This document shows positions 35,867-63,084 of a stretch of DNA of 64,000 nucleotides, one piece after another; position 1 is the stretch's first letter, and the number at the start of each line of letters is the position of its first letter. This stretch comes from Sulfurovum sp. (GTDB taxonomy: Bacteria > Campylobacterota > Campylobacteria > Campylobacterales > Sulfurovaceae). The notes below the pieces were generated by a model that worked only from the letters and a program-made list of their open reading frames with translations, had not been told where the DNA came from and searched no databases. A program made the position numbers and the translations under genes. The stretch is from assembly GCA_027068485.1 (NCBI GenBank), contig JAMOSB010000022.1:1-64000 (forward strand), read 5' to 3'.

Positions 35867-36578
35867 TCCTGACCTCATTACTATTAAAGCTCAAAAGATA
35901 CTACAGCAAGCCGATGTGGTGCTTTATACGGGGTCGTTGGTGCCTCGTGAGGTGTTGGGGTGGTGTCGGGAGGATACTCTGATCGTGGACTCTCAGGGGA
36001 TGAAGTATCCTGAGATCTTTGCGTTTTTGTTGTCGCATCGTGATCAGTGTGTTGCGAGAGTCCATACGGGGGATCCGTCACTCTACTCTACCATCGCCAA
36101 GCAGATCGACTTCTTGACCCAACAGGGGATAGCCTATGAGGTGATACCTGGGATCACGGCGGCGTTTGGGGCGGCGGCGGCGTTGGGGATAGAGTATACC
36201 ATCCCTGGGGTGTCGCAGACGATTATCCTCACGCGTGTGGAGGGGAAGACCCCCAACCCTGAGAGCCTAGAGCATATCTTGGCATGTCGCAACTCCTCGT
36301 TGGTCTTCTATCTCTCTATCTTGCTCCTCAAAAAGCTCAAAGCCCAAGCCCTTGAGATGGGTTATACCCCTGATACACCGTGCTGGGTGGTGGAGAAGGC
36401 GACTTGGGAGGAGGAGGCGATCTACAAAGGTACGCTTGTCACCATCGAGGAGCAGGTGGGGCATATCCGTGGGGTAGCACTCATTTTGCTTGGGGAGTTT
36501 CTCCATCAAGAGGAGCGTACCGAGTCACACCTCTACGCCAAACCCCTCCTCAAACAGTGTGATGCAAAGGATCGCTAG
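35835..36578 (+). CDS. cobM: Precorrin-4/cobalt-precorrin-4 C11-methyltransferase
   Basis: CobM/CbiF adds the C11 methyl group of the corrin ring from S-adenosylmethionine. The 247-residue protein begins IYFIGAGSGDPDLIT, then YTGSLVP, VHTGDPSLYSTI and GITAAFGAAAALG, a close match to the CbiF group of tetrapyrrole methylases. It is the first gene of the plus-strand half of the cobalamin locus, and its TAG overlaps the GTG of cbiG by one base. Confidence 0.93.
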   Translation: MIYFIGAGSGDPDLITIKAQKILQQADVVLYTGSLVPREVLGWCREDTLIVDSQGMKYPEIFAFLLSHRDQCVARVHTGDPSLYSTIAKQIDFLTQQGIAYEVIPGITAAFGAAAALGIEYTIPGVSQTIILTRVEGKTPNPESLEHILACRNSSLVFYLSILLLKKLKAQALEMGYTPDTPCWVVEKATWEEEAIYKGTLVTIEEQVGHIRGVALILLGEFLHQEERTESHLYAKPLLKQCDAKDR

Positions 36579-37591: not shown

Positions 37592-38373
37592 TGGCACATA
37601 AACTCTATATCCTCAGCAGTGGTGCGGGGGGTACCAAATATATGACAACCGAAGCACTCGATGCCCTAGAGGCGTGTGAAGTAGTCGTGGGCTACCGCAA
37701 CTATGTCAAGGAGCTTAAACCGCTCATCGGGGATAAGCCCATCTTTATGTCGGGAATGACCAAGGAGATACAGCGGTGTCAAGAGGCGATCAACTACGCC
37801 AAAGAGGGCAAAACCACCTGTATCATCTCCAATGGAGATGTCAATGTCTTTGGGATGGCAACACTGGTTACGGAGCTGATGGATGAGCAGGGGTTGTGGG
37901 ACAGGATAGAGGTGGAGTCTATCGCAGGGGTGACCTCCTTTTTGGCGACGGCAAGCCGTATAGGGGCTCCCATTAGCCAAGACTTTGCCGTAATCTCCCT
38001 CTCTGACAAGCTCACCGATATCGACATCATCGACAAGCGGGTACGCAACTGCTTTGAGGCGGATATGATTTTGGGAATCTACAACCCCAAGTCCAAAAAG
38101 CGTATCCTCCCCTATCAGAACTTCCTCCAAGCGATGCGTGAGGGGGAGGAGCGTATCGCGATCATCGCCTCTCATGTAGGGCGTGACAATGAGAAGATCA
38201 GCGTGACAACCACGACGGACTTGATCGCACAAGATATCGAACACCCTGAGATCACCATGTCGACGCTAATCATTGTCGGGAACTCTCAAACACGCCACAC
38301 CACAAACGGACAGGTACTCACCCCACGAGGCTACCTCAACAAGTATGAGATGAGTGGAACACTCAAAGCCTAG
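37591..38373 (+). CDS. cobJ: Precorrin-3B/cobalt-factor III C17-methyltransferase
   Basis: CobJ/CbiH performs ring contraction with C17 methylation. The 260-residue protein starts KLYILSSGAGG, with VVVGYRNYV and LGIYNPKSKKR as family landmarks. The usual GDPGVYGMA motif reads GDVNVFGMA here, and the N-terminal glycine loop has serines, so the SAM pocket departs somewhat from the best-known members. Start and stop overlap the neighbours (TAATG and TAGTG). Confidence 0.9.
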   Translation: MAHKLYILSSGAGGTKYMTTEALDALEACEVVVGYRNYVKELKPLIGDKPIFMSGMTKEIQRCQEAINYAKEGKTTCIISNGDVNVFGMATLVTELMDEQGLWDRIEVESIAGVTSFLATASRIGAPISQDFAVISLSDKLTDIDIIDKRVRNCFEADMILGIYNPKSKKRILPYQNFLQAMREGEERIAIIASHVGRDNEKISVTTTTDLIAQDIEHPEITMSTLIIVGNSQTRHTTNGQVLTPRGYLNKYEMSGTLKA

Positions 38374-39665
38374 TGCAAGCCTTCTGTATCTCTGCTGTTG
38401 CCTCCAACCAAGGCAAGACTATCCTCACCACCGCCTTGCTGTGGCATTTTCGCGACTCGGTGCGTCCCTTCAAGATAGGACCTGACTTCATCGACCCGCA
38501 GTTTCACACACAGGTATGTGGTACCCCCTCGGTCAATCTCGATAGCTTTATCATGAGTGAGGAGCAGATGGGGTGGGTGTTTGCCCACTATGCAGATAAG
38601 AGAGTCGCCATACTCGAAGGAGTCATGGGCTTCTACGATGGAGAGAACAAAGGGTGTTCGGCATATAGCGTGAGCCGATACCTAGCCATCCCCACTATCG
38701 TGGTACTCGATGGGAGTGGGAGCTACATCACCATCTCCGCAGTACTCCAAGGGCTACTAGGCTACAAAGAGGGCAACACCATACAAGCCATCGTCCTCAA
38801 CAAACTCTCCTCACCCATGCACTACGCACTCATCAAGAGCCAAATCGAACACGACCACCCCCACATCATCGTGCTAGGGTGGATAGCCAAAAATCTCCCC
38901 TCACTCAGCGATACTCACCTAGGCTTGGATCTCGATGACCTAGACAAGATCGCCCAGATCAGCCAAGAGGTACTAGAGCATATTGAGTTAGCGTCACTCG
39001 AAACCCTCACACCACCCCTCTCACGCCCCACTCCCTCCCACTACCCCTTTGCCCCTACCCCCAAGCTAGAAAAAACCCTAGCCATTGTAAATGATGTCAA
39101 CTTCTCCTTTCTCTACCATGACAATCTCAAGTTTTTGGAAGCGGTGTTTGAGGAGGTCATCCGCATCGATGCCACCCAAGACCACCCCATCCCTAACCAC
39201 TGTGATGTGGTCTATATCGTCGGGGGGTATGTCGAGAGTCACGAAGCCTATGCACGCATCGCCCACGCGACACGCTTTAGAGAGAGCCTCATCGCCCATG
39301 CCCAGACCAAGCCCATCTACGCAGAGTGTGCGGGGCTACTCTACCTCGCCAAGAGCGTAGATGACAAGACCATGAGCGGTATCCTACCCCTACACTTCAC
39401 CCTAGAGCCACGCTTCACCCGTCTAGGCTACTACCAAAATGAAGCAGGTATCAAAGGTCACGCCTTTCACTACACCAAGCCCACCCCAGAGAGCCTAGAG
39501 CGGGGCTTTGATATCCTCAGCAAAACCCCCAACGGCAGAGGAGAGGTAGGGAGCTGGAGAGAGGGCAAAGTATTTGGCACCTATCTCCATACGATGTTTC
39601 GAGTCTATCCTCAGCTATGGTGTGATAGTGTCAAAGGGGTGAGATCCTTCTCCACCCGTATCTGA
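38373..39665 (+). CDS. cbiA: Cobyrinate a,c-diamide synthase
   Basis: CbiA amidates the a and c side chains of cobyrinate using glutamine and ATP. The 430-residue protein has a P-loop-like start ISAVASNQGKTILTTAL and FKIGPDFIDPQFH. The C-terminal glutamine amidotransferase domain has its nucleophile in YAECAGLLYL near residue 316 and the histidine region GHAFHYTK. The start is GTG overlapping the cobJ stop. The last 55 bases overlap, tail to tail, with cobL. Confidence 0.94.
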   Translation: MQAFCISAVASNQGKTILTTALLWHFRDSVRPFKIGPDFIDPQFHTQVCGTPSVNLDSFIMSEEQMGWVFAHYADKRVAILEGVMGFYDGENKGCSAYSVSRYLAIPTIVVLDGSGSYITISAVLQGLLGYKEGNTIQAIVLNKLSSPMHYALIKSQIEHDHPHIIVLGWIAKNLPSLSDTHLGLDLDDLDKIAQISQEVLEHIELASLETLTPPLSRPTPSHYPFAPTPKLEKTLAIVNDVNFSFLYHDNLKFLEAVFEEVIRIDATQDHPIPNHCDVVYIVGGYVESHEAYARIAHATRFRESLIAHAQTKPIYAECAGLLYLAKSVDDKTMSGILPLHFTLEPRFTRLGYYQNEAGIKGHAFHYTKPTPESLERGFDILSKTPNGRGEVGSWREGKVFGTYLHTMFRVYPQLWCDSVKGVRSFSTRI

Positions 39666-40804
39666 AACAGCTGTCTCTCAGGCTCTATCAAGTCCAAGGC
39701 TCCTTTGTAGGTGGTGAGTGAGAGGGAGATTACCTTGTAGGCTATCTTGGCTTCATTTAATACGCTGATCATCTGGGTGAGGTTTTTGAGGGTGATAGCG
39801 TTGATGAGGAGTATACCCTCTGCCTTGAGACGCTCGTAGAGGTAGGGGAGTCGGGCGATGACTTGGGTGCCTCCACCCCCTACAAAGATACGATCAGGAT
39901 CCTCCTCCAAGCTCTCAAAAAGCTCCTCCGCACTCCCCTCTAGCAGGGTGGTATCACAGACGAAGTGGCTCGTGAGATTTTGGCGGATGTAGTCACAGCG
40001 TTGGGACTGTTTCTCTAGGAGGATAGTGCGGACACTGTAGCGTTTGTAGGCCTCTATCGCACAGCTTCCACTCCCTGCTCCCACATCCCAAAGTAGTTGA
40101 TTGGGGGCGAGGTCGAGGTGTTGGAGGGAGAGATGGCGTTTATACTGCTTGGTGATCATCCCCCGCTCCGTAGCAAACGCACTATCCTCACTCACCGCAG
40201 AGGGTGGGGTGAAGCGTCGCTCAATGAGTAGGACATAGGGTTGGGTGAGGTCAAATGCTCGCCACGAATAGTCAAAAAGATTGATCTGCTCAATCACCTC
40301 ATCAGGGTAGCCTAGCTTGTAACCTATCGTGACAGCAATATCCTCTGCCTTGAGATAGCGTGTCGCCTCTTTGAGCTTGAAAATACTCTCTTTGTCACAG
40401 AGTACAAAGGTGTAGCGATTGGTTAAAAAACGCTCCAGATCAAGATGCGTTCTACCATGTAAGGAGAGTGTCTCTACTTCTGTATCACCAATGAGTAGTT
40501 TGGTCAAGAGATAGGCCTTGGAGGAGGTATTGTCAATGAGTGTCACCTCATCCTGAGGTAGTTGCTTCGCGATGAGTATCCCCGCCGAGTAAAAAAGTGG
40601 ACTCCCCGTCACCACATAGAGGATATCCTCCCGCTGATACTGCTCTATGATATAGGATTTTGCCTCTTTGTAACTTAGTTTGAGGAGGTTTACCCCCTCC
40701 TCTTTGAAGTTCGTATCACAAATCACACGATCAAATCGCTCTATCTCAATGGTCAGATTATCAAAAGTATAATCCCCCATTCCGTTGCCTGTTATGGTTA
40801 ACAT
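39611..40804 (-). CDS. cobL: Precorrin-6B C5,15-methyltransferase (decarboxylating), CbiE-CbiT fusion
   Basis: The 397-residue protein joins a CbiE tetrapyrrole methylase domain (about residues 1-205) to a CbiT methyltransferase domain (about 210-390). Landmarks are LTITGNGMGD, VVTGSPLFYSAG, and in the CbiT half LLWDVGAGSGSCAIEA and FVGGGGTQ. It methylates C5 and C15 and decarboxylates the C12 acetate. It is the last gene of the minus-strand half and converges on cbiA with a 55-base overlap. Confidence 0.92.
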   Translation of the reverse strand: MLTITGNGMGDYTFDNLTIEIERFDRVICDTNFKEEGVNLLKLSYKEAKSYIIEQYQREDILYVVTGSPLFYSAGILIAKQLPQDEVTLIDNTSSKAYLLTKLLIGDTEVETLSLHGRTHLDLERFLTNRYTFVLCDKESIFKLKEATRYLKAEDIAVTIGYKLGYPDEVIEQINLFDYSWRAFDLTQPYVLLIERRFTPPSAVSEDSAFATERGMITKQYKRHLSLQHLDLAPNQLLWDVGAGSGSCAIEAYKRYSVRTILLEKQSQRCDYIRQNLTSHFVCDTTLLEGSAEELFESLEEDPDRIFVGGGGTQVIARLPYLYERLKAEGILLINAITLKNLTQMISVLNEAKIAYKVISLSLTTYKGALDLIEPERQLFQIRVEKDLTPLTLSHHS

Positions 40805-40811
40805 ACTGTCC

Positions 40812-41783
40812 TCACTGTACGATATGGGTGGTGACCTGAAGCGTCGGGTACCACTGTTGGATCTGTTGGGTGCTTTGGTGAGTGATAAGCGTATAAAAAT
40901 CCCCTACCCGCTCACCTAACTGTACCGTAATCCCCTTGACCGTTTTGGTCATCTCTGTGTCTACTTCGATGCCTAGATGCGTGGCGATGTCGTGTTTGAG
41001 TCGTGCAAAGTCGATACTCCCAAAGCGGTTGTGGGTATTTTGGTACCCTTGGGCGACTTTGACCGCTTTACCTATCCCACAGATGAAGACCACCTCAGCT
41101 ATCCCCTGCTTCTGTGCGATGGAGAGAGCATCATAGACAAAGTTGCCTATCTCTACGATCTGCTCCTTTGCATAGTGGCTCTGACCCTCTGCCAAAGAGC
41201 GGTTGCCAAGGGTGAGGATAATCTTCGTGTAGCCGTTTGCCTTGGCAAAGGCGATCTCTGTGGCGATGGAGTCGAGGTAGGCAGTGCTTGAGATGGGTTT
41301 GACCCAGCCTGTCGTCCCGAGGATAGAGAGTCCACCCATCACCCCCACCTTGGCATTGGCAGTCTGCTTGGCGAGTGCTTCCCCTTCTGTGATGGCGATC
41401 GTCGCGTAGAGTCGTCGCTGGCTGACTCCCCACCGTCTATAGCACGCTTCGATGGCCGTCAGGGGGGTGGGGTTGATGGCGGGATAGCCCTTGGGGGGTT
41501 TAAGTCCTGCTTTGGTCACCACACCGACCCCCTCCCCTGCATAGAGCATAAGAGTGCCTAGGGTGTAGGGGGTGTGTGAGAGAGGGTTGAGGGTGAGGTC
41601 GGAGCGGTGGTAGGAGAGGGTCACGACGATCTCACACCCTTTGGTGACATCGAGATCATCATTGGGCATCTTGTGGGTGGTGACGCGACAGCACAACCCC
41701 GTAGCCATCACCCCTTCGAGTGCCTTCTCAAATGCCACGACCGCATGGACTCCTGTGGTGTAGCCTCGACGGAGTTTAGCCAT
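40812..41783 (-). CDS. cbiD: Cobalt-precorrin-5B C1-methyltransferase
   Basis: CbiD adds the C1 methyl group in the anaerobic route. From the ATG at 41783 the protein has 323 residues and begins with the family motif LRRGYTTGVHAV. It continues with GEGVGVVTKAGL, PAINPTPL and LGTTGWVKPIS. The longer frame to 41813 lies inside the upstream gene, so the internal ATG, which overlaps that gene by 8 bases, is preferred. Confidence 0.93.
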   Translation of the reverse strand: MAKLRRGYTTGVHAVVAFEKALEGVMATGLCCRVTTHKMPNDDLDVTKGCEIVVTLSYHRSDLTLNPLSHTPYTLGTLMLYAGEGVGVVTKAGLKPPKGYPAINPTPLTAIEACYRRWGVSQRRLYATIAITEGEALAKQTANAKVGVMGGLSILGTTGWVKPISSTAYLDSIATEIAFAKANGYTKIILTLGNRSLAEGQSHYAKEQIVEIGNFVYDALSIAQKQGIAEVVFICGIGKAVKVAQGYQNTHNRFGSIDFARLKHDIATHLGIEVDTEMTKTVKGITVQLGERVGDFYTLITHQSTQQIQQWYPTLQVTTHIVQ

Positions 41784-42432
41784 AGACCCGCATCGGGATA
41801 TACGCCTCTTCATCTACCACTTCACTCAGAGGAGTATCGTCTCGAAGTGCCTCAAAGAGCCTCTCCCACTGAGCCTCACTCCACTGGTGTGTCTGGCGAA
41901 ACCACAAGGCGTTGTTGGCAACATTGCCATTGGCTTGGGTGTTAGCGACACACTGTGCCACCTGCCGAAAGCGACACGCCCCAAAACAGCCCGTACGGGA
42001 GATCTTGATACGGTGTTGCCCTTGGTTGAGTCCCATACGCTTGAGGATCGCCCTAAGCTGGGCAGACTTATCGACCTTGCCCGCTTTGGCACACCGCTCC
42101 CCCTCACAGATATAGAGCTGATACTTGAAGTGCATAATGGGACGGGTAGCATCAAAATCCTTGGGCTTGCACGCATACCCCTCCACGACCTCCTGCCCCA
42201 TCTCATTGATCTTGGGTGGGGTCGGCTTACGCGATACCAAATCCATCGCCCCTATCACTGTCTTGTACGGCACCTCTAGCGTGATCTCTCGCTCATTGGC
42301 GAGATAGACGATACGCATCCTCTTACTTGACTTGATATGCTTGGCTTCTAGGATAGTTATCTCTCGTGTGAGATAGCGTGCCGTATCCCCCTGCTTGATC
42401 TTCTCTGTTCCATTCTCATAGTATGCACACAC
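41776..42432 (-). CDS. Protein with NuoE-type thioredoxin-like [2Fe-2S] ferredoxin domain, in the cobalamin operon
   Basis: The 218-residue protein has an N-terminal region of about 100 residues that I do not recognise. A thioredoxin-like ferredoxin domain follows, with cysteines at 109, 114, 149 and 153 (C-x4-C-x34-C-x3-C, almost the NuoE spacing). It starts with GTG after AAGGAG. Its position between cbiC and cbiD, in a locus lacking a recognisable CbiJ, makes it a candidate electron donor or stand-in for precorrin-6A reduction. That role is inference. Confidence 0.75.
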   Translation of the reverse strand: MCAYYENGTEKIKQGDTARYLTREITILEAKHIKSSKRMRIVYLANEREITLEVPYKTVIGAMDLVSRKPTPPKINEMGQEVVEGYACKPKDFDATRPIMHFKYQLYICEGERCAKAGKVDKSAQLRAILKRMGLNQGQHRIKISRTGCFGACRFRQVAQCVANTQANGNVANNALWFRQTHQWSEAQWERLFEALRDDTPLSEVVDEEAYIPMRVYG

Positions 42433-42442
42433 TGTCGACTCC

Positions 42443-42757
42443 TTATGCTACTGAGGCTTTGAGTGCCTCTATCATCTGAAAATACCCTATCAGCATCTCA
42501 AAACAGACTCTCCAGACGATCTCCATCGCCACAAATACCCCCAGAAGCAGGAGGAGTATCCCCCCTTTTTGCGTGAGGGTAAGCTCCCGCCACATCAACC
42601 CTAGAGGCTCACTAAGCCTACGCATCCACGGTACCCTGCGTCGCAACACCCCACGAGCCAACCAGATCACAAGCGGTATCAGTACCGCCCCAAAGTAGTA
42701 GCCTATCAGCAGTACCTCGATGGCGATAAAGCGTCTAAAGGTTAAAAACTCTATCAT
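42443..42757 (-). CDS. Small two-TM membrane protein in the cobalamin operon (DUF4282-like appearance)
   Basis: The 104-residue product begins FLTFRRFIAIEVLLIGYYFGA and has two strong hydrophobic helices (about residues 11-34 and 63-90) separated by a basic cytoplasmic loop. The layout recalls DUF4282 proteins. Its ATG overlaps the cbiC stop (ATGA) and the ferredoxin gene follows after 10 bases, so all three are translated as a unit. A role with the ferredoxin protein is possible but unproven. Confidence 0.6.
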   Translation of the reverse strand: MIEFLTFRRFIAIEVLLIGYYFGAVLIPLVIWLARGVLRRRVPWMRRLSEPLGLMWRELTLTQKGGILLLLLGVFVAMEIVWRVCFEMLIGYFQMIEALKASVA

Positions 42758-43464
42758 TTGCCATTATAGTGTGTCGTCCCATCATAATCTTTGATGAGTT
42801 TGTAGGTGGCGTGGAGGGTGGCGACTCCCATGGTGGAGCTACCAAACCGCCCCTCCATAATGACTGCGGGGAGATCAAAGTGTTCGCTGAAGCGTCTGCC
42901 GTACTCCTTGGACTCTAGGACATTGACAAATCCCACAGGGAAGAGGAGCAGTGCGACTTGGCTGAGGTCTACCCCCTCATCGAGCAGGGTATTAATCGCT
43001 GCATAGATAAAGGTGGGGGCGTTTCCACACACCAGTACCATCGGCTCTCCTTTGTGGCGTTTGATCGCCTCAACCACCGCGGCGTAGCTTCGGGTTGTCT
43101 GATGTGCTTTGGCGTGTTCGTAGGTGAAGGGTTCATTGATATAGCAGACCACCTCATTGCCGTAGGTATCGAGATAGAACTGGCTCAACCCCACCTTAAT
43201 CATATTGACATCGACGATAATCTTAGCGTGGTTAAGCAAGAGGTCTTTGATACGGTGTAGGGCATTGGGGGAGAAGTAGATGTTGTCAAGTATCTGCTCA
43301 AAGCAGGTGGTGGTGTGAATCAGCCGTGCAATCACCGCACGCTCTTCGGTGTTGAACTGGACGACTTGTGGATAGCGTTCCAACTCCTCCTCTATCATCT
43401 CAAAGGACTTCACAGAGATATCTGCTCCAATATTGATGGGAGGTTGTTCTTGGGTAAATGCCAT
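42754..43464 (-). CDS. cbiC: Precorrin-8X/cobalt-precorrin-8 methylmutase
   Basis: CbiC/CobH moves the methyl group from C11 to C12. The 236-residue protein has the catalytic histidine in IARLIHTTTC near residue 46, VDVNMIKVGL, GNAPTFIYAA and PVGFVNVLESKE. The start ATG overlaps the cbiL stop (TAATG). Confidence 0.92.
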   Translation of the reverse strand: MAFTQEQPPINIGADISVKSFEMIEEELERYPQVVQFNTEERAVIARLIHTTTCFEQILDNIYFSPNALHRIKDLLLNHAKIIVDVNMIKVGLSQFYLDTYGNEVVCYINEPFTYEHAKAHQTTRSYAAVVEAIKRHKGEPMVLVCGNAPTFIYAAINTLLDEGVDLSQVALLLFPVGFVNVLESKEYGRRFSEHFDLPAVIMEGRFGSSTMGVATLHATYKLIKDYDGTTHYNGK

Positions 43465-44141
43465 TAGGTATCCTTCTGAAAAAAGTCGATAAAGAGTGTC
43501 ATATACTTGGTGACTTTAGGTATCTTGTGTGGGGTGATCTGCTCCCCTTGATAGTTCATATTCTCAAAGCTATAGAGGCTTCCAGAGTGGGTAATCTTAT
43601 CGGTATCCATCCCAATCTTTGGACGCATATAGATGGTCGTAGTCGGCACAGCTTTATCGAGTAGTGGGATGATCTCAAAGCGACTATCCCCCACACACAG
43701 AGGCTTCTTGACCTTTGCGGAAGCTTGTGAGAAGGAGGTGACCCCTGCGATCACTTCGGTGTTGGCATAGAGGGAGGGGCGTTGGGCTTGGATCAGATCA
43801 AGGAGGTAGTAGACGGTACTATAGACCGCACTATCACCCAGCGTCACAAAACTCAGGCTCTCATACTGCTCAAACCCTTGGTAGAGTCGATCGACTTGAT
43901 ACTGCCAATCCTCCACTTTGAAGTGCATCGGGGTGTAGATGGGAAGCAGTGGCTTGGTGAAGCCATGCTCTTCCATTAGGCGTGTGACGATTGTGTGTGT
44001 GAGGGATTTGGTGAAGCTCTTGTCGGGGCTTTTGGTCGGGATACAGATCGCATCACACTGCTGTAGGGCTTTGAGGGCTTTGAGGGTGACAAGTTCGCTA
44101 TCGCCTGGCCCCAAGGAGACCATATAGAGTTGCTTATCCAA
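43464..44141 (-). CDS. cbiL: Precorrin-2/cobalt-factor II C20-methyltransferase
   Basis: CbiL/CobI methylates C20. The conserved N-terminus MVSLGPGDSELVTLKAL is followed by IPTKSPDKSF, LGDSAVYSTVYYL and VIAGVTSFSQAS. I chose the TTG at 44141, six codons before that sequence, because GAGGAG lies upstream. It overlaps the cbiK end by 8 bases and gives 225 residues. The frame runs farther upstream, but that part is inside cbiK. Confidence 0.9.
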   Translation of the reverse strand: MDKQLYMVSLGPGDSELVTLKALKALQQCDAICIPTKSPDKSFTKSLTHTIVTRLMEEHGFTKPLLPIYTPMHFKVEDWQYQVDRLYQGFEQYESLSFVTLGDSAVYSTVYYLLDLIQAQRPSLYANTEVIAGVTSFSQASAKVKKPLCVGDSRFEIIPLLDKAVPTTTIYMRPKIGMDTDKITHSGSLYSFENMNYQGEQITPHKIPKVTKYMTLFIDFFQKDT

Positions 44142-44949
44142 GCTTGACAATCTCCTCGGTGATGTTTTGCATAATAATCGCACGGATACGCTCAAGCTCG
44201 ATGAGGTTAAACCGCTCCGATTGTGTCTGGGTCGGGACGATCTGCGTCTCAAACTCCTCACCAAGCTCCTGCGTGATCTCGATCATATCTTTGCGGTAGT
44301 GGTTGCCACTGACAAGGAGGAGTGGGACGATCTGTAGCCTCTTAACCCCCTCTCGTTTCATCTGCTCGATGAGTCGCTCTTTGATCGCATAGTAGGGGAA
44401 TGCCCCCTCTAGTGAACAGGTGTAGTTTTGCACACCCACACGCGACAAGAAGGCTTCGGTATACTCCACCGCACTCAACCCTGCCAAATCCAATACAGGC
44501 ACCCCATGAATGACATAGAGATTGGCTACGCCCTCTTGAGTAACCGCATCATCGAGGGCTTTGAGAGCGAGAGAGGACTCTTTGGTCTTGTGGAGGATCG
44601 CCTTAGTTGCACGGATATTGGCAAGGGAGAAGTGGCTAAAGCCTGAGACGATACGCCCCAACACCATATGCTCATCGGTAGGGAAGAGGTTGATAGAGGC
44701 AACAACGATATTGCGGTATCCCAACATATCGACATCCGCAAGAACCTGAGGGAGGTTCTTGTAGGGGAGTCCTCGCTGTTGGAGGTTTTTGAGTACCATC
44801 CGTGAGGAGAAGGAGAGGAAGACATCTACCCCCTCAAACTTCGCCTCCACCTCTGCTTTGAGGTCAAGGTACATCTGCTGTTCGATCACAGAACCAAAAC
44901 ACGCAAGGACAATCGCCTTATCTCTAGTGTGGTGTCGGTAGCGTTTCAT
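44134..44949 (-). CDS. cbiK: Anaerobic sirohydrochlorin cobaltochelatase, CbiK type
   Basis: CbiK inserts cobalt into sirohydrochlorin, the committing reaction of the early-cobalt route. The 271-residue chelatase has AIVLACFGS near the N-terminus, the metal-site histidine in VIHGVPVLD near residue 145 and the second in LLVSGNHYRKDM near residue 207. The size is that of CbiK rather than short CbiX. It lies 5 bases downstream of cbiM, directly linking cobalt import to insertion. Confidence 0.9.
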   Translation of the reverse strand: MKRYRHHTRDKAIVLACFGSVIEQQMYLDLKAEVEAKFEGVDVFLSFSSRMVLKNLQQRGLPYKNLPQVLADVDMLGYRNIVVASINLFPTDEHMVLGRIVSGFSHFSLANIRATKAILHKTKESSLALKALDDAVTQEGVANLYVIHGVPVLDLAGLSAVEYTEAFLSRVGVQNYTCSLEGAFPYYAIKERLIEQMKREGVKRLQIVPLLLVSGNHYRKDMIEITQELGEEFETQIVPTQTQSERFNLIELERIRAIIMQNITEEIVKLG

Positions 44950-55087: not shown

Positions 55088-55591
55088 TTACTCTGAGAGT
55101 AGTTGCTTTTTTATAAATGGGTCATGGAGATGTTTCCCTTGTAGCATCAGCAGTCGCATCTCTTCATAAGGGATATCTCCTGCTCGTGGATGCTCCAATG
55201 CCCCAAATCCATACCCCATAGGAGAGGGAGCCGTACGGGAGTAGTAGGCTTTATTGACTGCTATCCAGTGATGGGTATCGAGGGTTTGTGTGACAAAGCG
55301 TGCGATTTTGGGCTGGTGTGTTTTGAGCCAAAGTACCGCACACCCTATCTCATCAAAGAAGTAGGTATCCCCCTCTTGGGTGATTAGCTCTACACTATAC
55401 GCCATCGCCTCGATTGGCATATTACACTCCGAACACTGATAGGTGTTGGGAGTGAGCGGGATAATCTTATGCTCAGTGTTGCCTTTGTAGACATAACGCG
55501 CCCCCTCTTCGGTACCAAAGGTGAGCAGGAGAACGACGATAATGGCGATCACCACACCAAAGGTCAAGAGATTTAGCAGTAATTTTTTCAT
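55088..55591 (-). CDS. NosL-family protein with N-terminal membrane anchor
   Basis: The 167-residue protein has an N-terminal membrane helix (about residues 4-25) instead of a lipobox. A NosL domain follows, with metal-site cysteines C53 and C56 in YQCSECNMPI, FFDEIGCAVLWL with a further cysteine, and a C-terminal SPMGYGFGA segment like the one in the lipoprotein at 61998-62459. NosL proteins bind Cu(I) and support nitrous oxide reductase maturation. It is the last gene of the operon and overlaps the preceding membrane-protein gene by 4 bases. Confidence 0.8.
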   Translation of the reverse strand: MKKLLLNLLTFGVVIAIIVVLLLTFGTEEGARYVYKGNTEHKIIPLTPNTYQCSECNMPIEAMAYSVELITQEGDTYFFDEIGCAVLWLKTHQPKIARFVTQTLDTHHWIAVNKAYYSRTAPSPMGYGFGALEHPRAGDIPYEEMRLLMLQGKHLHDPFIKKQLLSE

Positions 55592-56556
55592 AACAAAACT
55601 CCATTTTTGAGATAGTAGAGTGCCACAAAAGCACTACAGAGCAGAGTAAAGAGTCCTAGTAGCAGGGTCGAGAGGTGTGTCAACCTCGAAGATGAATGCC
55701 CCATCAAGTAGCCCAGTAGTGTACTATTGAGCCTCAAAAACACCCCTACCAAGAGTAGCCCCCAGACTAGATACCCCACATAGAAGTAGTGATCTTGAAG
55801 CATACAGAACGGACACTGGTGGGTGGGTAGCTCATAGATGTATGTCCCAAAGAAGTAGACCACCGCGTAGTAGGCAACCGTCGCAAAGAGGAGTGTCGAG
55901 ACCACGCCAAGCAGAAGCGACTCCATCACCCCACTCAAAACCACCAACGCAAAGAGCAGATAGAAGAGCCACAACACCTTAGGGATATCCAACCCCAACG
56001 GCAGACCACTCCCCCCACCCAAAGAGCCAAAGATCACCGAACAACAGCTCACAGGCTGGGTCGTCTCGATATGGGTAAAGTAGAGGATATCGAGTCCAAA
56101 CTCCAGACTCAACAACCCAAAGAGTCCTACAAAAAACCATGACTTAGCCCGTAGATAGGGGTAGTGTTTGGAGTGAAGATCTAGCCAGTTGAGCGTCAAC
56201 CATAGCCCACTAAGCAGAAGGATAATGAGTTTGAGAGTCAAGAGTGGATTGCCGTAGCGATTGGCTTTGATCACCCCTGCACCACACATCGCACCAGGGA
56301 TCAACGAGGCGAGGCTATCGATAGTGTAGACAAAGTAGGGAAGGAGTAGTACCTTGAGCATCATCACAAAGAAGATGATCGTCATCACCAGATAGGAGCG
56401 GTTCTCCAACGCAAACTGCTTGGGGGTAAACGCCTCAAAGTCCCATCCACGCAAGAGACTACCTGTCGCAACCACCGCAACAAGAAGCAATGCATAGAGA
56501 ATCCCCTCACTTAGAAGATAGATAATCACCTCATGGCTTAGTAGTATCTCAGACAT
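55588..56556 (-). CDS. Polytopic membrane protein with paired cysteines, unknown
   Basis: The 322-residue product has about eight membrane helices. Cysteines lie at 91 (GAMCGAG), 171-172 (PVSCCSVIF) and 248/251 (HQCPFCMLQ), the last a CxxC near the membrane face with methionine behind it. These would suit copper or thiol-disulfide chemistry, as in DsbB/VKOR-like proteins, but I see no homology strong enough to name it. It overlaps its neighbours by 1 and 4 bases, between the ABC ATPase and the NosL-family gene. Confidence 0.65.
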   Translation of the reverse strand: MSEILLSHEVIIYLLSEGILYALLLVAVVATGSLLRGWDFEAFTPKQFALENRSYLVMTIIFFVMMLKVLLLPYFVYTIDSLASLIPGAMCGAGVIKANRYGNPLLTLKLIILLLSGLWLTLNWLDLHSKHYPYLRAKSWFFVGLFGLLSLEFGLDILYFTHIETTQPVSCCSVIFGSLGGGSGLPLGLDIPKVLWLFYLLFALVVLSGVMESLLLGVVSTLLFATVAYYAVVYFFGTYIYELPTHQCPFCMLQDHYFYVGYLVWGLLLVGVFLRLNSTLLGYLMGHSSSRLTHLSTLLLGLFTLLCSAFVALYYLKNGVLL

Positions 56557-57230
56557 TAGACAATCTTCCCATCCTCCATCCCAATGACACGATCTACAAA
56601 GTCGAGGGACTCAAAGAGTGGATCATGGGTCGCTACAATAATCGTCTTGCCTTGGGCGTGTAGAGTTTCAAGCATCGCAATAAACTTCAAGGAGTTGGCT
56701 CTATCGAGGTTGGCGGTGGGTTCATCACAGAGGATGAGCTTGGGGTCATGTACCAATGCCCGTGCGATGGCACAGCGTTGTTTCTCTCCCCCTGAGAGGG
56801 CTTTGACCTGCTGAGTCGCCTTGTGTTCGATCGATGCCATCTGCATACTCTTGGATGCCATCTGTTTGAGTGTAGGGTAGGCAACCCCACTAGGGATAAG
56901 TGGGACGATGACATTCTCCTCTACACTCAACGCATCGAGTAGATTGAAGTGCTGAAATATCACCCCTATCGCTTTGGCACGGTAGGCTGAGGCGTGGAGG
57001 TCTGGGAGCTTAGAGATCGGCTCTCCTCCAACAACAATCTTGCCAGAGCTTGGCTTGTCAAGGGCTGCGATGAGGGAGAGCAGGGTTGATTTGCCACTTC
57101 CACTCACGCCACTCAAGACGACCATCTCCCCTGCCCCAACCTCCAGATCAATCGCACGCAACGCCTCAAACGCTTGGGGTCGCCCCTCATCAAAAATCTT
57201 GCTTACCTGCTCTATCTTTACCACTCTCAA
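56556..57230 (-). CDS. ABC transporter ATP-binding protein, LolD/MacB type
   Basis: The 224-residue ATPase has Walker A SGVSGSGKSTLL near residue 39, signature LSGGEKQRCAIARAL, Walker B LILCDEPTANLD and the switch histidine in VATHDP. The type pairs with FtsX-like permeases that work by mechanotransmission rather than import. The permease is the gene just upstream. Confidence 0.9.
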   Translation of the reverse strand: MRVVKIEQVSKIFDEGRPQAFEALRAIDLEVGAGEMVVLSGVSGSGKSTLLSLIAALDKPSSGKIVVGGEPISKLPDLHASAYRAKAIGVIFQHFNLLDALSVEENVIVPLIPSGVAYPTLKQMASKSMQMASIEHKATQQVKALSGGEKQRCAIARALVHDPKLILCDEPTANLDRANSLKFIAMLETLHAQGKTIIVATHDPLFESLDFVDRVIGMEDGKIV

Positions 57231-57240
57231 CTCCTCATCA

Positions 57241-58419
57241 CTACAACATCGCCTCTTTGGGAGGTGTCACGGCTATCTGCCACGCAGGGATCAAGACCGC
57301 CCCCAAAAAAGGGATCGCATAGAGCAGAAAGATCGACCCTAATAATCCAAACTCTATTGTGGGGACTAAGACAACATGGTTAGGCAGATTGGCTCCCCCT
57401 AAAAATATCTCTATCAGTAGGGGAGCATCCAGCACAAACACATACCCATATGCCACAACCACCCCTAGTATAAAGCTCACCACCACCACGCTCAGTGTCT
57501 CATAGAACTTCAGTTTGAGAATATCTTGGATACTCCACCCCACCGCACGCAAGATACCAATCTCGCGTCTCTCGGTTGAGTAGACCATCGCATACCGCTG
57601 ATAGAGTATCAACATAAAAGTCGCAAGGGTGATAAGGTAGAGTACCAAGAAGAGTCCCCCTTTGTAGTTGTAGAGTCTCTCATAGGATTTAATCACCTCT
57701 CGCTTCTCCACCACCCGTACATCATAGAAGAGTAGATGGAGCTTGGAGATGATGGTATCCCACTCCGCATCATTGGGGACATTGAAGGTGATATCTGTCA
57801 CCTCCTCCTCACCTAATCCAAAGATCTCACGAGCCAGTTCAAGAGGGAGTATCACCATATCATTGGCGATTAAGTTGGTCGTAGATGGGAGTGTCTGAGC
57901 GATCTTCACACGCTTAAATGTACCTTTGGGGGTCTTAAAAGAGAAACTATCGTTGTAGTAGTGATCCTCTAAAAACGCCTTGACCCCCTCCCCTACGACC
58001 ATACTAGGTGTCGCAAAGAATGCCTTGAGATCAATCCCTTCAATCAGCTTCTGTAGCATCACACTACTCTGTGTATCGAAGAAGTCCACCCCCACAACGA
58101 GAAAGGACTCCTGTCGTGGACTAAAGAAGTAGCGTCCATAGATACGCGGTGCGACATCTTGTACCCCACTCATCTGAGAGACGGCATCGACCCATGCCAG
58201 AGGGGTCGTGGTAGGCTCACCCGCCTGCATGCGTGTGACACTGAAGTCTGACTCTGCCTGTACACTATTTAGAAGGGTGGTCTGTAGAGACGCAGAGAGA
58301 AACAGTACCGAACTTAGCAGTGCGATAATCATCACGGAGATCAAGACCGCTCCGATATGTTTACTCTTTTGCTTGAAGAGTAGGAGGGTAACGAAGTAGA
58401 GAAAGGGGTTAGTGTGCAT
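57241..58419 (-). CDS. FtsX-like ABC permease (LolC/MacB type)
   Basis: From the ATG at 58419 the protein has 392 residues. One N-terminal membrane helix is followed by a large periplasmic domain (about residues 45-255) and three helices in the C-terminal FtsX-like part containing STERREIGILRAVGWS. It begins inside the end of the small upstream gene. Together with the ATPase it could extract or deliver a periplasmic lipoprotein such as NosL, or move a metal complex. The substrate is unknown. Confidence 0.85.
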   Translation of the reverse strand: MHTNPFLYFVTLLLFKQKSKHIGAVLISVMIIALLSSVLFLSASLQTTLLNSVQAESDFSVTRMQAGEPTTTPLAWVDAVSQMSGVQDVAPRIYGRYFFSPRQESFLVVGVDFFDTQSSVMLQKLIEGIDLKAFFATPSMVVGEGVKAFLEDHYYNDSFSFKTPKGTFKRVKIAQTLPSTTNLIANDMVILPLELAREIFGLGEEEVTDITFNVPNDAEWDTIISKLHLLFYDVRVVEKREVIKSYERLYNYKGGLFLVLYLITLATFMLILYQRYAMVYSTERREIGILRAVGWSIQDILKLKFYETLSVVVVSFILGVVVAYGYVFVLDAPLLIEIFLGGANLPNHVVLVPTIEFGLLGSIFLLYAIPFLGAVLIPAWQIAVTPPKEAML

Positions 58420-58672
58420 AGATAAATCCAACTCTACTAAGAGATTGAAGTTGTGGGTAGGCAGGGTTATTGGGGTTGAGAGCTACGCCTAAACGAGGAG
58501 TGCGGGACTCATAGTAGGCGACACTTAACGCCAGAGAAGAGAAGCCAGTGAGTGCGACGACTGAGTCGATCTGCTCTTGGGTAGTGGGGCGATCATACCC
58601 TAGATAGTCTCCCACTACACACCCCACTGCCACCAAAACTACTACACCCAAGAGGATAAATGACTTCACCAT
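58409..58672 (-). CDS. Small exported or anchored protein of unknown function in the NosL operon
   Basis: The 87-residue product has an N-terminal hydrophobic helix ending VAVGCVVGD, possibly a lipobox-like cysteine at residue 18, and a soluble remainder with no recognised motif. It is 3 bases downstream of a NosL-family gene and overlaps the permease gene, so it is surely part of the operon. Confidence 0.6.
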   Translation of the reverse strand: MVKSFILLGVVVLVAVGCVVGDYLGYDRPTTQEQIDSVVALTGFSSLALSVAYYESRTPRLGVALNPNNPAYPQLQSLSRVGFIYAH

Positions 58673-58675
58673 AGG

Positions 58676-59359
58676 CTACTGCTCTATCCCATCAAGTCGC
58701 ATCACCATCGTCGCATCAATCTGATCAAACGATACAATACGCTTACCGTGATGCTCCGCCATAAAGGATTTGGCCTCTTTGGCACGCTTAAAGGCGATAA
58801 GTTCGCGTCCCATTGGTCCATAGACATCTGCATCTAGTACATAGAACGCCTCTTTGGCAGGGATCTTCTCAAGGGTGTAGTAGTCACTCACCATCATCTC
58901 TGTAATCGCAGTACGGTTGTAGGGGAAATCTCCATCAAAAATATAGTACTTCATCATATCTTTGACCCCATCAAAGTAGTAGTGTTTGTCACCCACGACC
59001 AACATCGCTGCCCACTTGGGATACTGCCCAACAAACATCCCACAGACAGGACACTTCGCATCAGCAGGGACATCAAGTGGGGTGCCTGTTCGCTTCGTCG
59101 TCCCATGCTGAAGATAGAGGGCGATCGCTTGACGCTTGGATCGGGAGAGTGGAGGACACGCACCCGAGTGGCTAATCTCCTCCATCAATGAGATCGTAGA
59201 GCCAGAGGCATGAGGAAGCTTGCTCTTATCACAAAGCATGGTGACGATCCGCTCCCCTTTGGTCGCAAGCTTAGCTAGCTGATCTGCACGCATCTCTCCT
59301 GCACTCAGTAGACCTAGTGCTAACACCACACCCCAAATCACTCTCTTCATCCTCTGCAC
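58676..59359 (-). CDS. NosL-family protein with N-terminal two-cysteine module
   Basis: The 227-residue exported protein has a signal peptide (about residues 1-25). A module of about 50 residues with cysteines 43 and 68, ending LxxxxxQAIALYL, resembles the end of a small cytochrome c but lacks CxxCH. A NosL domain then has C103 and C106 in KCPVCGMFVG, HYYFDGVKDMMKYY, and AKSFMAEHHGKRIVSFDQI. Copper binding is expected from the family. The module recurs at the other end of the next protein (59372-60067). Confidence 0.82.
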   Translation of the reverse strand: MQRMKRVIWGVVLALGLLSAGEMRADQLAKLATKGERIVTMLCDKSKLPHASGSTISLMEEISHSGACPPLSRSKRQAIALYLQHGTTKRTGTPLDVPADAKCPVCGMFVGQYPKWAAMLVVGDKHYYFDGVKDMMKYYIFDGDFPYNRTAITEMMVSDYYTLEKIPAKEAFYVLDADVYGPMGRELIAFKRAKEAKSFMAEHHGKRIVSFDQIDATMVMRLDGIEQ

Positions 59360-59371
59360 CTCTTTGGCTAA

Positions 59372-60067
59372 CTATCGGCGAGAGAGATAGAGTCCAACCG
59401 CTTGCATCTGCTTAGGGTTGAGTCCGCTACAGAGCTTATGGCTCATTACAAAGGCTTTGGCATCGGCCGTCGTCTCAAACTTCTCTTGAGTCGCTTGACA
59501 CTTCTTAGCGTAGAGCATCGCACCCTTTTTTGCCATCATCGCTTGTTTTTTAGCGATCATCTTAGACTCTTTGGCAAAGCCCTGCTTGGCTACTCCATAT
59601 GCCCCCTCAAATCGCATCACATCACCACCATACTGTGTTGCAAAGGCTTTGGCATCGACCTCTTTACCAAAAGCGTACTTACTCACCATACTCATCGTAC
59701 CCTTCTTGCTACTTCCTACAACATAGTACGCCTCTTCTACGGGGATAAACTTCAGCGTAGTGACATCAACCACACGCTTATGCGTTAGCGTTGCACCATG
59801 CTCCAAGTCTGCTACCATACAGTGGAGTGAACAGTATTGCTTCTCTTTGCCATCAAGGGTTGCGACATGATTGGTCTTGTAGAACATCGGAAGCATCATC
59901 CCACACTCAGGACAGAAGGGTTTGGCTTTGCCCTCTTGGAGAAGCGTCGCTTGTGTCATGGGGACACTCTGAAAAAGCTTCATCATCTTTTTGGGGTGAG
60001 CCTCTTGGGCAGTAGTAGAGAGGGTCATCATAGCCAGAGCTATGAGCGTGAGTAGCAATCTTTTCAT
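59372..60067 (-). CDS. NosL-family protein with C-terminal two-cysteine module
   Basis: The 231-residue exported protein has a signal peptide (residues 1-20). A NosL domain follows, with C52 and C55 in FCPECGMMLP and C79/C83 in QYCSLHC, next to methionines that could add copper ligands. A methionine/lysine-rich linker comes next. The C-terminal module (C190, C213) ends QMQAVGLYL and matches the N-terminal module of the 58676-59359 product. AAGGAA lies upstream of the ATG. Confidence 0.82.
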   Translation of the reverse strand: MKRLLLTLIALAMMTLSTTAQEAHPKKMMKLFQSVPMTQATLLQEGKAKPFCPECGMMLPMFYKTNHVATLDGKEKQYCSLHCMVADLEHGATLTHKRVVDVTTLKFIPVEEAYYVVGSSKKGTMSMVSKYAFGKEVDAKAFATQYGGDVMRFEGAYGVAKQGFAKESKMIAKKQAMMAKKGAMLYAKKCQATQEKFETTADAKAFVMSHKLCSGLNPKQMQAVGLYLSRR

Positions 60068-60128
60068 TCTGTTTCCTTATTATTCTGATAATGTATCATA
60101 ATCTACTAGTGTTAAATTACTGTTAAAC

Positions 60129-60653
60129 CTAGTAGAAACGGTGAATCTCTTCCATAATAGTCGCAAACTCTATATCTTCACCCTTCTCTTTGAGAAAAGC
60201 AACCAGATAGGCTTGAGATGCCTCTACAGACTCTCTCTGCTCTATCTCCAAAAGTGTCGCATAGAGATCAGCGATGATCTCGATGACATGGGTTGAGATC
60301 TTTTTGCGTGCGGCGTGGTAGCCGATGATCTTCCCTGTATCATTATCCCTGCGTGACTCAAACTCTGTAAAGATCCAGTAGTAGCGTCCATCTTTGGCAA
60401 GGTTTTTTACCACGGCATTGATATTTTTACCCTGTGCAATCGTCTCCCAGAGCAACTTAAAGACCACCTTGGGCATATCGGGGTGGCGTACGATACTATG
60501 GGGTTTGCCTATCAGCTCCTCTTGGGTGTAGCCACTCACCTCTAAAAAGTAGTCATTACAAAAGGTGATACGCCCCTTCTCATCAGTCTCACTGACGATA
60601 TAGCGTTTGGGGTCGAGGTGTATCTCTTCATCTTTGGGGGTTGGTTTGGTCAT
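60129..60653 (-). CDS. Single-PAS signalling protein, Aer/CetB-like
   Basis: From the ATG at 60653 (AAGGA 7 bases upstream) the protein has 174 residues and one PAS domain with RITFCNDYFLEVSGY, EELIGKPHSIVRHPDMP and WxTFxxSRRDxDTG-like sequence, the pattern of FAD-binding energy-taxis sensors such as Aer and CetB. A short helical C-terminus follows, with no kinase or methyl-accepting domain. It starts 1 base after the stop of a NosL-like gene, so it may sense redox state for the respiratory operon. Confidence 0.82.
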   Translation of the reverse strand: MTKPTPKDEEIHLDPKRYIVSETDEKGRITFCNDYFLEVSGYTQEELIGKPHSIVRHPDMPKVVFKLLWETIAQGKNINAVVKNLAKDGRYYWIFTEFESRRDNDTGKIIGYHAARKKISTHVIEIIADLYATLLEIEQRESVEASQAYLVAFLKEKGEDIEFATIMEEIHRFY

Positions 60654-60654
60654 C

Positions 60655-61164
60655 TTATATCCTTCCATTTAAAAGTCGTATGAGGGCATCAGACACCTCA
60701 TCAAAGGTGAGTATCCGTTTGCCGTTGTAGTGGGTCATAAAGGCTTGTGCATCTGCGTGTGTCGCAAAGGGGACGAGATCATCTCCCGCAGGTGAGATAG
60801 CACGACTACCATAGACAAAAAAAGCACGCTCTGCATCGATCGCTTTGAGACTCTTATAGTCGGTGACAACAATCTTAGAGAAATCTCTCTCACTCTTCAC
60901 CCCCACATCAAACCACTTCCCTGGACGATGGTAGAACTCAAAGAGTGACTTAGGTGAGGAGAAGTAGACCGTTTTGCCACCACGCACCTCTATCTTGGCG
61001 ACCCATTTGGGATCTTTGTAGAGAGGGATATGACGCACAAGGCAGGTGGTGTTTTTGTCATAAGTAATCAGATACTTGACACTAGGGCTAAAGGGCTTGG
61101 CGACGGGAGTGGACGCAACAGCCCAAAGGCTCAAGAGGGTAAGTGTAACGAGTAGTTTGTTCAT
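60655..61164 (-). CDS. NosL-like exported protein lacking the CxxC motif
   Basis: The 169-residue protein has a signal peptide and the body of a NosL domain: KWVAKIEVRGGKTVYFSSPKSLFEFY, a VTDYKSLKAIDAERAFFVYGS segment and AQAFMTHYNGKRILTFDEV, as in the 58676-59359 product. At the usual metal site only one cysteine remains (C41, in TTCLVRH). It may be a structural partner or bind copper by another set. It follows nosY by 9 bases. Confidence 0.75.
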   Translation of the reverse strand: MNKLLVTLTLLSLWAVASTPVAKPFSPSVKYLITYDKNTTCLVRHIPLYKDPKWVAKIEVRGGKTVYFSSPKSLFEFYHRPGKWFDVGVKSERDFSKIVVTDYKSLKAIDAERAFFVYGSRAISPAGDDLVPFATHADAQAFMTHYNGKRILTFDEVSDALIRLLNGRI

Positions 61165-61173
61165 AGAGTTCCT

Positions 61174-62001
61174 TTAGACTAGATCTTTTTTGGTGAAGAC
61201 ACGATACCCTAAAAAGGCAAACAACACCCCAACTATCACAGGGTAGAGTATCGAAAGCAAGACAAAAACCCCTTGGCTCATCGTGTCGAGTATCGTAAAT
61301 GCCACAGGTCCCATCACCGTAAGCTCAGGATCAAAGAGGCTAATGGCTGCCACACGGAATATCTCCATGGGGTTGAGCATAGCGATAGAGAGGATCAACT
61401 CCTCACTCATACGGTTTTGAAGCATCAAGGAGATGAGCGCAATATCGATAAAAGCCAGAAGAAAGATCCAGACAAAAAAGGAGAGTCCCAATGCCATCTC
61501 AGAGGACTTCACACTCGAAGAGATAAAAAAGGCTATCCCCAAAAATGCGGAACTCATCGCAAAGAGAAGCCCTGTATAGAGGAAAAAGATATTCCACGGG
61601 ATAGATGCTCCCTTAAAGGCTCCATACCCAATCGCAAACACCATCGCCATAAAAACGGGTAAAAATACTGTGATAAAGCGTCCAAAGACCTTACCCCAGT
61701 AGTACTGTTTGAGTGAGATAGGAAAGGAGAGCATATACTCCAAGATATGGCTATCTCTATCCCCCGAAATCGAACGCACCGTTGTCACCAAGATAAAGAT
61801 AGGCAAGATGATAATCGTCACTTGAATATACATCAAAAGCAACCGACTCAATCCCGAAAATCCCATCACCTGCGACTCTGTAATCCCCGCAATAAAAAAG
61901 AGGGCGATTAGCCCACCAAAGACGACCGAGTAGATCAAAAACCAGTTGGCACGAATCGACTCTTTGAGGTCGAGATAGGCGATTAAAAGTAGATTTTTCA
62001 A
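61174..62001 (-). CDS. nosY: NosY-type ABC-2 permease
   Basis: The 275-residue protein has six membrane helices and typical segments GDRDSHILEYMLSFPISLKQYYWGKVFGRF and ILDTMSQGVFVLLSI, a match for the ABC-2 permease of the Nos assembly system. It works with NosF and the periplasmic NosD (not in the window) to deliver sulfur or copper to nitrous oxide reductase. The TTG start overlaps the stop of the lipoprotein gene (TTGA). Confidence 0.85.
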   Translation of the reverse strand: MKNLLLIAYLDLKESIRANWFLIYSVVFGGLIALFFIAGITESQVMGFSGLSRLLLMYIQVTIIILPIFILVTTVRSISGDRDSHILEYMLSFPISLKQYYWGKVFGRFITVFLPVFMAMVFAIGYGAFKGASIPWNIFFLYTGLLFAMSSAFLGIAFFISSSVKSSEMALGLSFFVWIFLLAFIDIALISLMLQNRMSEELILSIAMLNPMEIFRVAAISLFDPELTVMGPVAFTILDTMSQGVFVLLSILYPVIVGVLFAFLGYRVFTKKDLV

Positions 62002-62459
62002 TAGGCTCTCCTGTTGTTTTTTTCTTCAATGATAAAGATCTGTTGGCTCATCTCTTGAAAACTTACCGTATGAGGAAGCTTCTGCTTATGTGCGGAGAAG
62101 CCATACGCCATAGGGGTGAGTGTCCCGCTACTATAGTATGCGTTGCGTGCATCGATCCACTCTCCCGTCTGCACATCCGTGATCCAGATCTTGGCACGAG
62201 ACGCCCACGGTGTCTTCTCATCATCAAACCACAAGATCACACAACCAATATCATCAAACATATAGCTACGCCCTGTATCGATATTGATCACTTGGACGGC
62301 GTGGTGGCGTTCGCTTACGACCATCTTACACCGCATACACATATCTCTATCCCAATGTACCTCTTGAAGGGCTTGGGGGTCACGCTCTTGACACCCACTC
62401 CCCCCAAATATCAAGCCAAGAAGTATCAAAAGATAGCTTACACTAACACGCTTCATCAC
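61998..62459 (-). CDS. nosL: NosL copper-binding lipoprotein
   Basis: The 153-residue protein has a lipobox with cysteine 23 (GGSGCQE), then the copper motif MCMRCKMVV (C41, C44), FDDIGCVILWFDD and NAYYSSGTLTPMAYGFSA, all as in classical NosL. It is the only one of the five here with a standard lipoprotein signal. It overlaps nosF by 17 bases and nosY by 3-4 bases. Confidence 0.9.
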   Translation of the reverse strand: MMKRVSVSYLLILLGLIFGGSGCQERDPQALQEVHWDRDMCMRCKMVVSERHHAVQVINIDTGRSYMFDDIGCVILWFDDEKTPWASRAKIWITDVQTGEWIDARNAYYSSGTLTPMAYGFSAHKQKLPHTVSFQEMSQQIFIIEEKNNRRAY

Positions 62460-63084
62460 TGGTAATCTCCCCTAGATCCATATAGATTTGACGATTGACA
62501 ATCCCTTTAACCTCCTCTATACGGTGGGTAACAAAGAGAGAGAGTTTCTCCTGCTCTTTGGATTGAATCAGTCGGTAGAAGTCATCGCGTGCTTTGGGGT
62601 CGAGATTGGCAGTGGGTTCATCATAGATCATGATCTCACTCTCTTTCGCCAAAGAGACCGCTATTAGAAACTTCTGCTTCATCCCTCCAGAGAGTGTGAA
62701 AAAAGACTTATGTAAGTTGGGCTTGATATCGAGCTTCATCTCATGTGCATAGTGAAAGATAAGCTCTTTATCCACCCCAGAACTCTTACAGATATAGGCG
62801 ATAAGCTCTGAGAGACTGAGCTTGATCGGAGGGGGGAGCTGTGGCACAAAACTCACCGAATGCAAAATCTCAACACGCTCTGTGATCGGATCTGCTCCCT
62901 TGATACGCACCTGCCCCTCAGTCGGATGATAATAGCCCATAATTAATCGAATCAGTGTCGTCTTTCCTGCACCATTGGCACCCATCAATGCGATCGCATC
63001 ACCCTTGTTAAAAGTCACAGAAACACGCTGTAGTGATACGGTTTTACCAAATTTCTTCGTCAGATTTGTCGTCTCTATCATCAT
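62443..63084 (-). CDS. nosF: NosF-type ABC ATPase
   Basis: The 213-residue ATPase has Walker A MGANGAGKTTLIRL near residue 33, signature LSGGMKQKF, Walker B IMIYDEPTANLD and a switch histidine in VTHRIEE. It is shorter than most importer ATPases and matches the NosF group. It leads the nosF-nosL-nosY series. Confidence 0.88.
   Translation of the reverse strand: MMIETTNLTKKFGKTVSLQRVSVTFNKGDAIALMGANGAGKTTLIRLIMGYYHPTEGQVRIKGADPITERVEILHSVSFVPQLPPPIKLSLSELIAYICKSSGVDKELIFHYAHEMKLDIKPNLHKSFFTLSGGMKQKFLIAVSLAKESEIMIYDEPTANLDPKARDDFYRLIQSKEQEKLSLFVTHRIEEVKGIVNRQIYMDLGEITSDEAC

Follow-up and report, generated by a model that had tools for sequence, protein, structure and literature searches.

The maturation of nitrous oxide reductase depends on copper supply, and we know of no other major biological sink of N2O. 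The closest described system is the NosL/NosDFY machinery of Paracoccus, Pseudomonas and Shewanella and, among clade II organisms, Wolinella. In clade II NosL, the copper motif is CxxCxM, of which the CxM part and one further methionine are invariant (PMC6530538), whereas the outer-membrane receptor OprC has a copper site of the form CxxxM-HxM (PMC8610252). Two other systems are relevant for comparison: a "five-gene insertion" that includes an ABC transporter and separates nosL from nosY in Sulfurospirillum cavolei, reported without interpretation (PMC4794192), and FetABCDEF of Campylobacter jejuni iron uptake, for which a thiol-redox role has been proposed (PMC10783030).

The run of genes described here lies in a window of 64,000 nucleotides from Sulfurovum sp. 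It shares with the NosL/NosDFY systems nosF, nosY and a NosL (L1) in the nos order, the NosL fold and CxxCxM, but differs in having five NosL paralogues instead of one, in the lack of copper ligands in one of these (L2), and in the location of nosZ-B-D-G-C1-C2-H on another contig. We consider it reasonably probable that the run combines two modules: module A, a kit for CuZ assembly, and module B, a copper supply for periplasmic copper enzymes.

The gene run and its NosL-type proteins

The run consists of 12 consecutive genes, all on the minus strand, from 63084, where nosF forms the upstream end, to 55088, with intergenic gaps of -23 to +61 bp:

62443-63084, minus strand: nosF, ABC ATPase of the nos system (module A); ABC_tran 93.9 bits, orthologues between nosH and L1 in relatives
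61998-62459, minus strand: L1, lipoprotein NosL with CMRCKM (module A); PF05573 21.1 bits, E 4e-4; clade 100/99
61174-62001, minus strand: nosY, ABC-2 permease of the nos system (module A); PF12679 67 bits, 358-456 bits against nos-cluster orthologues
60655-61164, minus strand: L2, NosL fold without CxxCxM or the second methionine (module A); PF05573 71.9 bits; clade 98/92
60129-60668, minus strand: PAS protein; PAS_3 56 bits, conserved place
59372-60067, minus strand: L3, NosL domain (CPECGM, QYCSLHC) with a C-terminal di-cysteine domain (module B); PF05573 50.0 bits
58676-59359, minus strand: L4, N-terminal di-cysteine domain with a NosL domain (CPVCGM) (module B); PF05573 101.9 bits
58409-58672, minus strand: P5, small protein with a single hydrophobic segment at its N-terminal end (module B); present in 53 of 89 Mem loci
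57241-58431, minus strand: FtsX/MacB-type ABC permease (module B); PF02687 40 bits, PF12704 27.8 bits
56556-57230, minus strand: ABC ATPase, LolD/FtsE-like (module B); PF00005 116.7 bits
55588-56556, minus strand: Mem, 8-TM protein (module B); no match in Pfam or NCBIfam; invariant C91, C171, C172, H246, C248, C251
55088-55591, minus strand: L5, membrane-anchored NosL-type protein with CSECNM (module B); 33% identity to L1, E 6e-17 (BLAST); in 65 of 89 Mem loci

Judging from spacing and strand, the 12 genes are likely to form one transcript; promoter and terminator scans gave results at chance level. The PAS gene is found between L2 and L3 in many, though not all, relatives. All five NosL-like reading frames of the original prediction are present at the positions it gave, and it read their motifs correctly, including the member without CxxC. 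Its two ABC systems are both there but are of unlike kinds, namely NosFY, whose NosD gene is located on contig C13, and a MacB/FtsX-type transporter that comprises an FtsX permease with a MacB_PCD domain and a LolD-like ATPase.

In the proposed profile search of all five proteins, L4, L2 and L3 pass the Pfam NosL cut-off (PF05573, 24 bits), L1 falls just under it, and L5 has no match to this profile. Thus, the outcome that the prediction had named as fatal, a match of the product at 61998-62459 alone, did not occur, and three of the other proteins score higher than that one. Despite the Pfam miss, L5 appears to be a genuine NosL relative, given its BLAST similarity to L1, the pairwise hhalign values of the family alignments (E 2e-38 with L1, 3.5e-9 with L4) and its position in the tree. 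Hence all five proteins can be assigned to the NosL superfamily, L2, L3 and L4 by the profile and L1 and L5 through hhalign and the tree. In addition, L1 is 33% identical to an annotated NosL that adjoins nosZ in Thermomicrobium, and the model of L4 (pLDDT 93) matches the NosL structures 7og7/7osf in Foldseek (E 4.5e-8).

The Cu(I) motif CxxCxM is kept in L1, L3, L4 and L5, although some L5 members lack its first cysteine. L2 has CLVRHI at this site, and its SPAGDDL corresponds to GPMGxEL in L4. CxxCxM is missing in 14 of 14 aligned L2 orthologues, although these conserve GDDL and other fold residues; L2 is thus a maintained paralogue that has lost the copper site and is a NosL by its fold. 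Having lost the ligands, L2 is an unlikely copper carrier of the NosL type, and the ordered relay originally envisaged is not supported.

The extra modules ascribed to the two large forms exist but come down to one small, duplicated domain with two conserved cysteines that is common to L3 and L4 (hhalign 97%, E 4e-11). In fused double-NosL proteins, this domain is found once, in the middle of the protein, and in the split L3/L4 pair, twice; the two forms could be connected by fission of the gene and duplication of the domain or, conversely, by fusion and loss of the domain. An origin of this domain from cytochrome c, which seemed likely by eye, was rejected: there is no CxxCH, and the hhalign probability against the nos cytochromes is 1-3%.

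In a tree of 118 NosL domains (141 columns) with long outgroup branches, whose two deep sides are more reliable than its finer branching, one side unites L1 and L5 with NosL proteins of Thermomicrobium and Paenibacillus (100/97), and the other includes L2, L3 and L4 together with NosL proteins of Haloarcula, Cupriavidus and Sinorhizobium. Each of L1 and L2 makes up one side of a starred branch, as does L5 with support of 90/86. L3 clusters with the N-terminal halves of the fused double-NosL proteins (clade 100/99) and L4 with the C-terminal halves. Given this placement, the split of the five NosL types probably predates Campylobacterota, and the array does not appear to be a recent tandem expansion. 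The possibility that these are old paralogues, which a phylogeny was to check, is accordingly well supported, with five distinct old lineages recovered.

Two separable modules and their distribution

The neighbourhood survey in related Campylobacterota drew on genomes of the order together with 80 named loci, many from Sulfurovum, and splits the array in two. In relatives, module A is one conserved string, nosZ-B-D-G-C1-C2-H-F-L1-Y-L2, a clade II nos cluster of which nosF-L1-nosY-L2 in the window is the downstream half. Module B is a separate string, L3-L4 (or the fused form)-P5-FtsX-ATPase-Mem-L5. In two genomes assigned to the same genus (G141 and G130), modules A and B adjoin each other, and an OprC-like receptor is encoded ahead of them, directly upstream of nosZ, with tonB before the receptor in G141. 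L1 and L2 track nosZ clusters, whereas L3, L4 and L5 are part of another, separable module, present in 27 genomes without nosZ, and a dedicated relay among the five proteins is thus not supported. In one genome (G016; L074, 5426-7061), L1 lies apart from the nos string, on the opposite strand, and adjoins a second nosD-like gene.

The genome that contains the window encodes nosD, nosF, nosY and nosL along with nosZ, split over two contigs: nosZ-B-D-G-C1-C2-H is on C13 (G000:C13:9056-16707, L006), and the part that starts with nosF is on C22, where a psrABC-like molybdoenzyme set precedes it. In none of the relatives examined is nosH separated from nosF in this way. The same psrABC set occurs in two relatives whose sequence can be read beyond it, and neither has nosF or other nos genes there; in a third, the sequence ends at the contig edge. 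The psrABC set was therefore rejected as a natural partner of the run, and its adjacency to nosF looks specific to this assembly. Given the two psr-containing relatives, the nos split would be either a rearrangement particular to this genome or a chimeric assembly error.

The marker of module B is Mem, a protein of 322 residues predicted to form eight long helices (AF2 pLDDT 88.6). In 57 homologues, M90 is invariant along with C91, C171, C172, H246, C248 and C251, in the motifs GAMC, CC and HxCPFC. In the predicted structure, all of these residues are in loops after even-numbered helices and thus appear to be on one face of the membrane, probably the periplasmic one. A search of the PDB with Foldseek produced no significant match for Mem, and assignment to a known fold was rejected, the VIA matches being generic helical bundles with Z in the range of unrelated bundles.

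Mem is present in 64 of 200 genomes of a phylum sample and in 69 of 150 Campylobacterales genomes (78 copies). Among the latter 150, Mem and nosZ occur together in 42, Mem without nosZ in 27 and nosZ without Mem in 16 (Fisher odds 6.3, p 3e-7, with genomes counted as independent and kinship ignored). As 27 of the 69 genomes with module B lack nosZ, NosL genes are no marker of N2O reduction. With contigs being fragmented, linkage counts are lower bounds: a NosL match is within 6 kb of at least 56 of the 78 Mem copies, nosZ within 25 kb of at least 15 of the 78 (in each case less than 19 kb away), and at least eight have mccA within 12 kb. A random place in a 2 Mb genome has a chance of only about 2-3% of falling within 25 kb of a given gene, which argues that the linkage is not accidental.

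A NosL-type protein, MccL, is known from the mcc operon in the Wolinella literature. In the present data, the haem-copper sulfite reductase MccA was identified via PDB 4rkm (1276 bits). Read directly, the order in G010 is mccA-B-C-D-ccsA-Sel1-doubleNosL-FtsX-ATPase-Mem-L5, and another seven genomes also show linkage of Mem to mccA. All nine genomes with canonical mccA encode Mem. The fused double NosL-FtsX-ATPase-Mem-L5 string behind mccABCD-ccsA in G010 thus resembles module B of the window, in which, however, two separate genes, L3 and L4, stand in place of the double NosL and come after nosFLY. The second copper enzyme surmised for the run has a candidate in the octahaem haem c-copper MccA, which is encoded within 12 kb of module B in eight copies of relatives, but no match to MccA was found in the genome of the window itself. 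In an mcc-type operon of G020 (C1; L228, 5137-7607), mccA was not found, IS21-like genes directly precede a shortened mccC-like gene, and the downstream double-NosL module is intact.

An OprC-like receptor is encoded beside module B in five loci (L101, L103, L115, L118 and L153). In the genome of the window, the receptor (C1:14875-16893) carries CPNRM and HPM, in agreement with the CxxxM-HxM site of OprC/NosA, and OprC is the top PDB match (E 9e-25) for a relative with 63% identity to this receptor. It is on a different contig from the run and thus outside the operon itself. In a Helicobacteraceae MAG (L118, 5834-14167), two double-NosL genes flank module B and the OprC-like receptor beside nosHFLYL2.

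Probable copper supply and rival readings of module B

Because module B is shared by the surroundings of NosZ and MccA and is found near a receptor with the OprC copper site, the best reading appears to be that it supplies copper, as suggested by this context, to periplasmic respiratory copper enzymes. The receptor, NosZ and MccA also bear out the copper context assumed for the five-NosL run. The homology, motifs, gene order and linkage to nosZ, mccA and the receptor are directly observed; from these, we infer copper as the cargo, the direction and order of transfer and a redox role of Mem.

Under the copper-supply reading, copper would enter via the OprC/NosA-like receptor, the paired NosL domains of L3 and L4 would hold Cu(I) at CxxCxM, and the five-cysteine Mem together with the anchored L5 would pass copper on or keep it reduced. 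The MacB-like FtsX/ATPase pair would tie ATP hydrolysis to periplasmic loading or release. L1 would deliver Cu(I) to NosDFY, the machine for CuZ assembly in NosZ, as in the studied denitrifiers, whereas L2, with the fold kept and the ligands lost, would most likely be a docking or regulatory partner of that machine. Several observations count against copper supply: 20 genomes with Mem have neither nosZ nor canonical mccA, some Arcobacteraceae keep FtsX-ATPase-Mem with no NosL nearby, the motif cysteine is lost in part of the L5 family, and, in the genome of the window, the receptor is off the contig and MccA is absent.

The main rival, which we regard as possible but unlikely, is a thiol-redox module in which Mem and FtsX/ATPase supply reductant or thiol that keeps the NosL cysteines and enzyme sites reduced. 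The CPFC, CC and MC motifs on the Mem loops would suit such a role, and so would the DsbD_2-family membrane protein that is found in 38 of 89 Mem loci and follows many Mem copies; CxxC pairs, however, are common copper sites too. The precedent is FetABCDEF, an ABC transporter with thiol oxidoreductases that is thought to relay reducing power (PMC10783030). FetMP-FetABCDEF of C. jejuni resembles module B in its FtsX-type permeases, LolD-like ATPase, 8-TM protein and thiol motifs around a metal, but module B has NosL in place of P19/FTR1 and a single permease that is similar to FetB/FetC at the superfamily level only. FetA combines 8 TM with DUF2318 and YHS; Mem was rejected as a FetA relative, with no relationship detected at the profile level (hhalign probability 0.8%).

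Copper export or detoxification, with a MacB-like efflux device fed by NosL-type carriers, is improbable: MacB-type systems are typically exporters, and the permease combines FtsX and MacB_PCD domains, but the linkage is to copper-using enzymes and to an outer-membrane receptor of the import type. A LolCDE-like lipoprotein sorting or envelope system made of FtsX-ATPase-P5-L5, with the NosL genes as passengers, is very improbable, for even though the ATPase scores well with LolD and FtsE models, FtsX matches lolCE (E 1e-6) and NosL is missing from some Arcobacteraceae loci, most Mem copies have a NosL gene close by, and the linkage to nosZ and mccA would not be expected of a lipoprotein sorter.

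Module B appears to have hardly been described before. The possibility, raised with the original prediction, that the arrangement is common and already described holds for the first half only, the sole description found being the passing mention in S. cavolei (PMC4794192), in a search that covered little of the Wolinella nos/mcc literature. That insertion, likened here by its description, is reported within a nos cluster and likewise includes an ABC permease and an ATPase, but the paper discusses neither its function nor its NosL content. The same search found nothing relevant on MccL or multi-NosL arrays, and the Shewanella SirA paper mentions neither copper nor NosL. We tentatively propose, with a little less than even confidence, that module B is an unrecognised copper supply of Campylobacterota reused for NosZ or MccA and that L2 is a copper-blind structural part of the CuZ machine. 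If so, anaerobic respiration in Campylobacterota would have a general route of copper supply in this module, which accompanies NosZ as well as MccA, and a testable role would fall to the Mem family, so far uncharacterised, and to many "extra" NosL genes.

Contigs that carry the labels of an unplaced bacterium and of a candidate Krumholzibacteriia (L158 and L159) also contain module B, either through horizontal transfer or because they are misbinned Campylobacterota contigs. A long cobalamin biosynthesis cluster is located at 35835-44949 of the window, and similar genes adjoin a module B copy in another genome (G132, L227).
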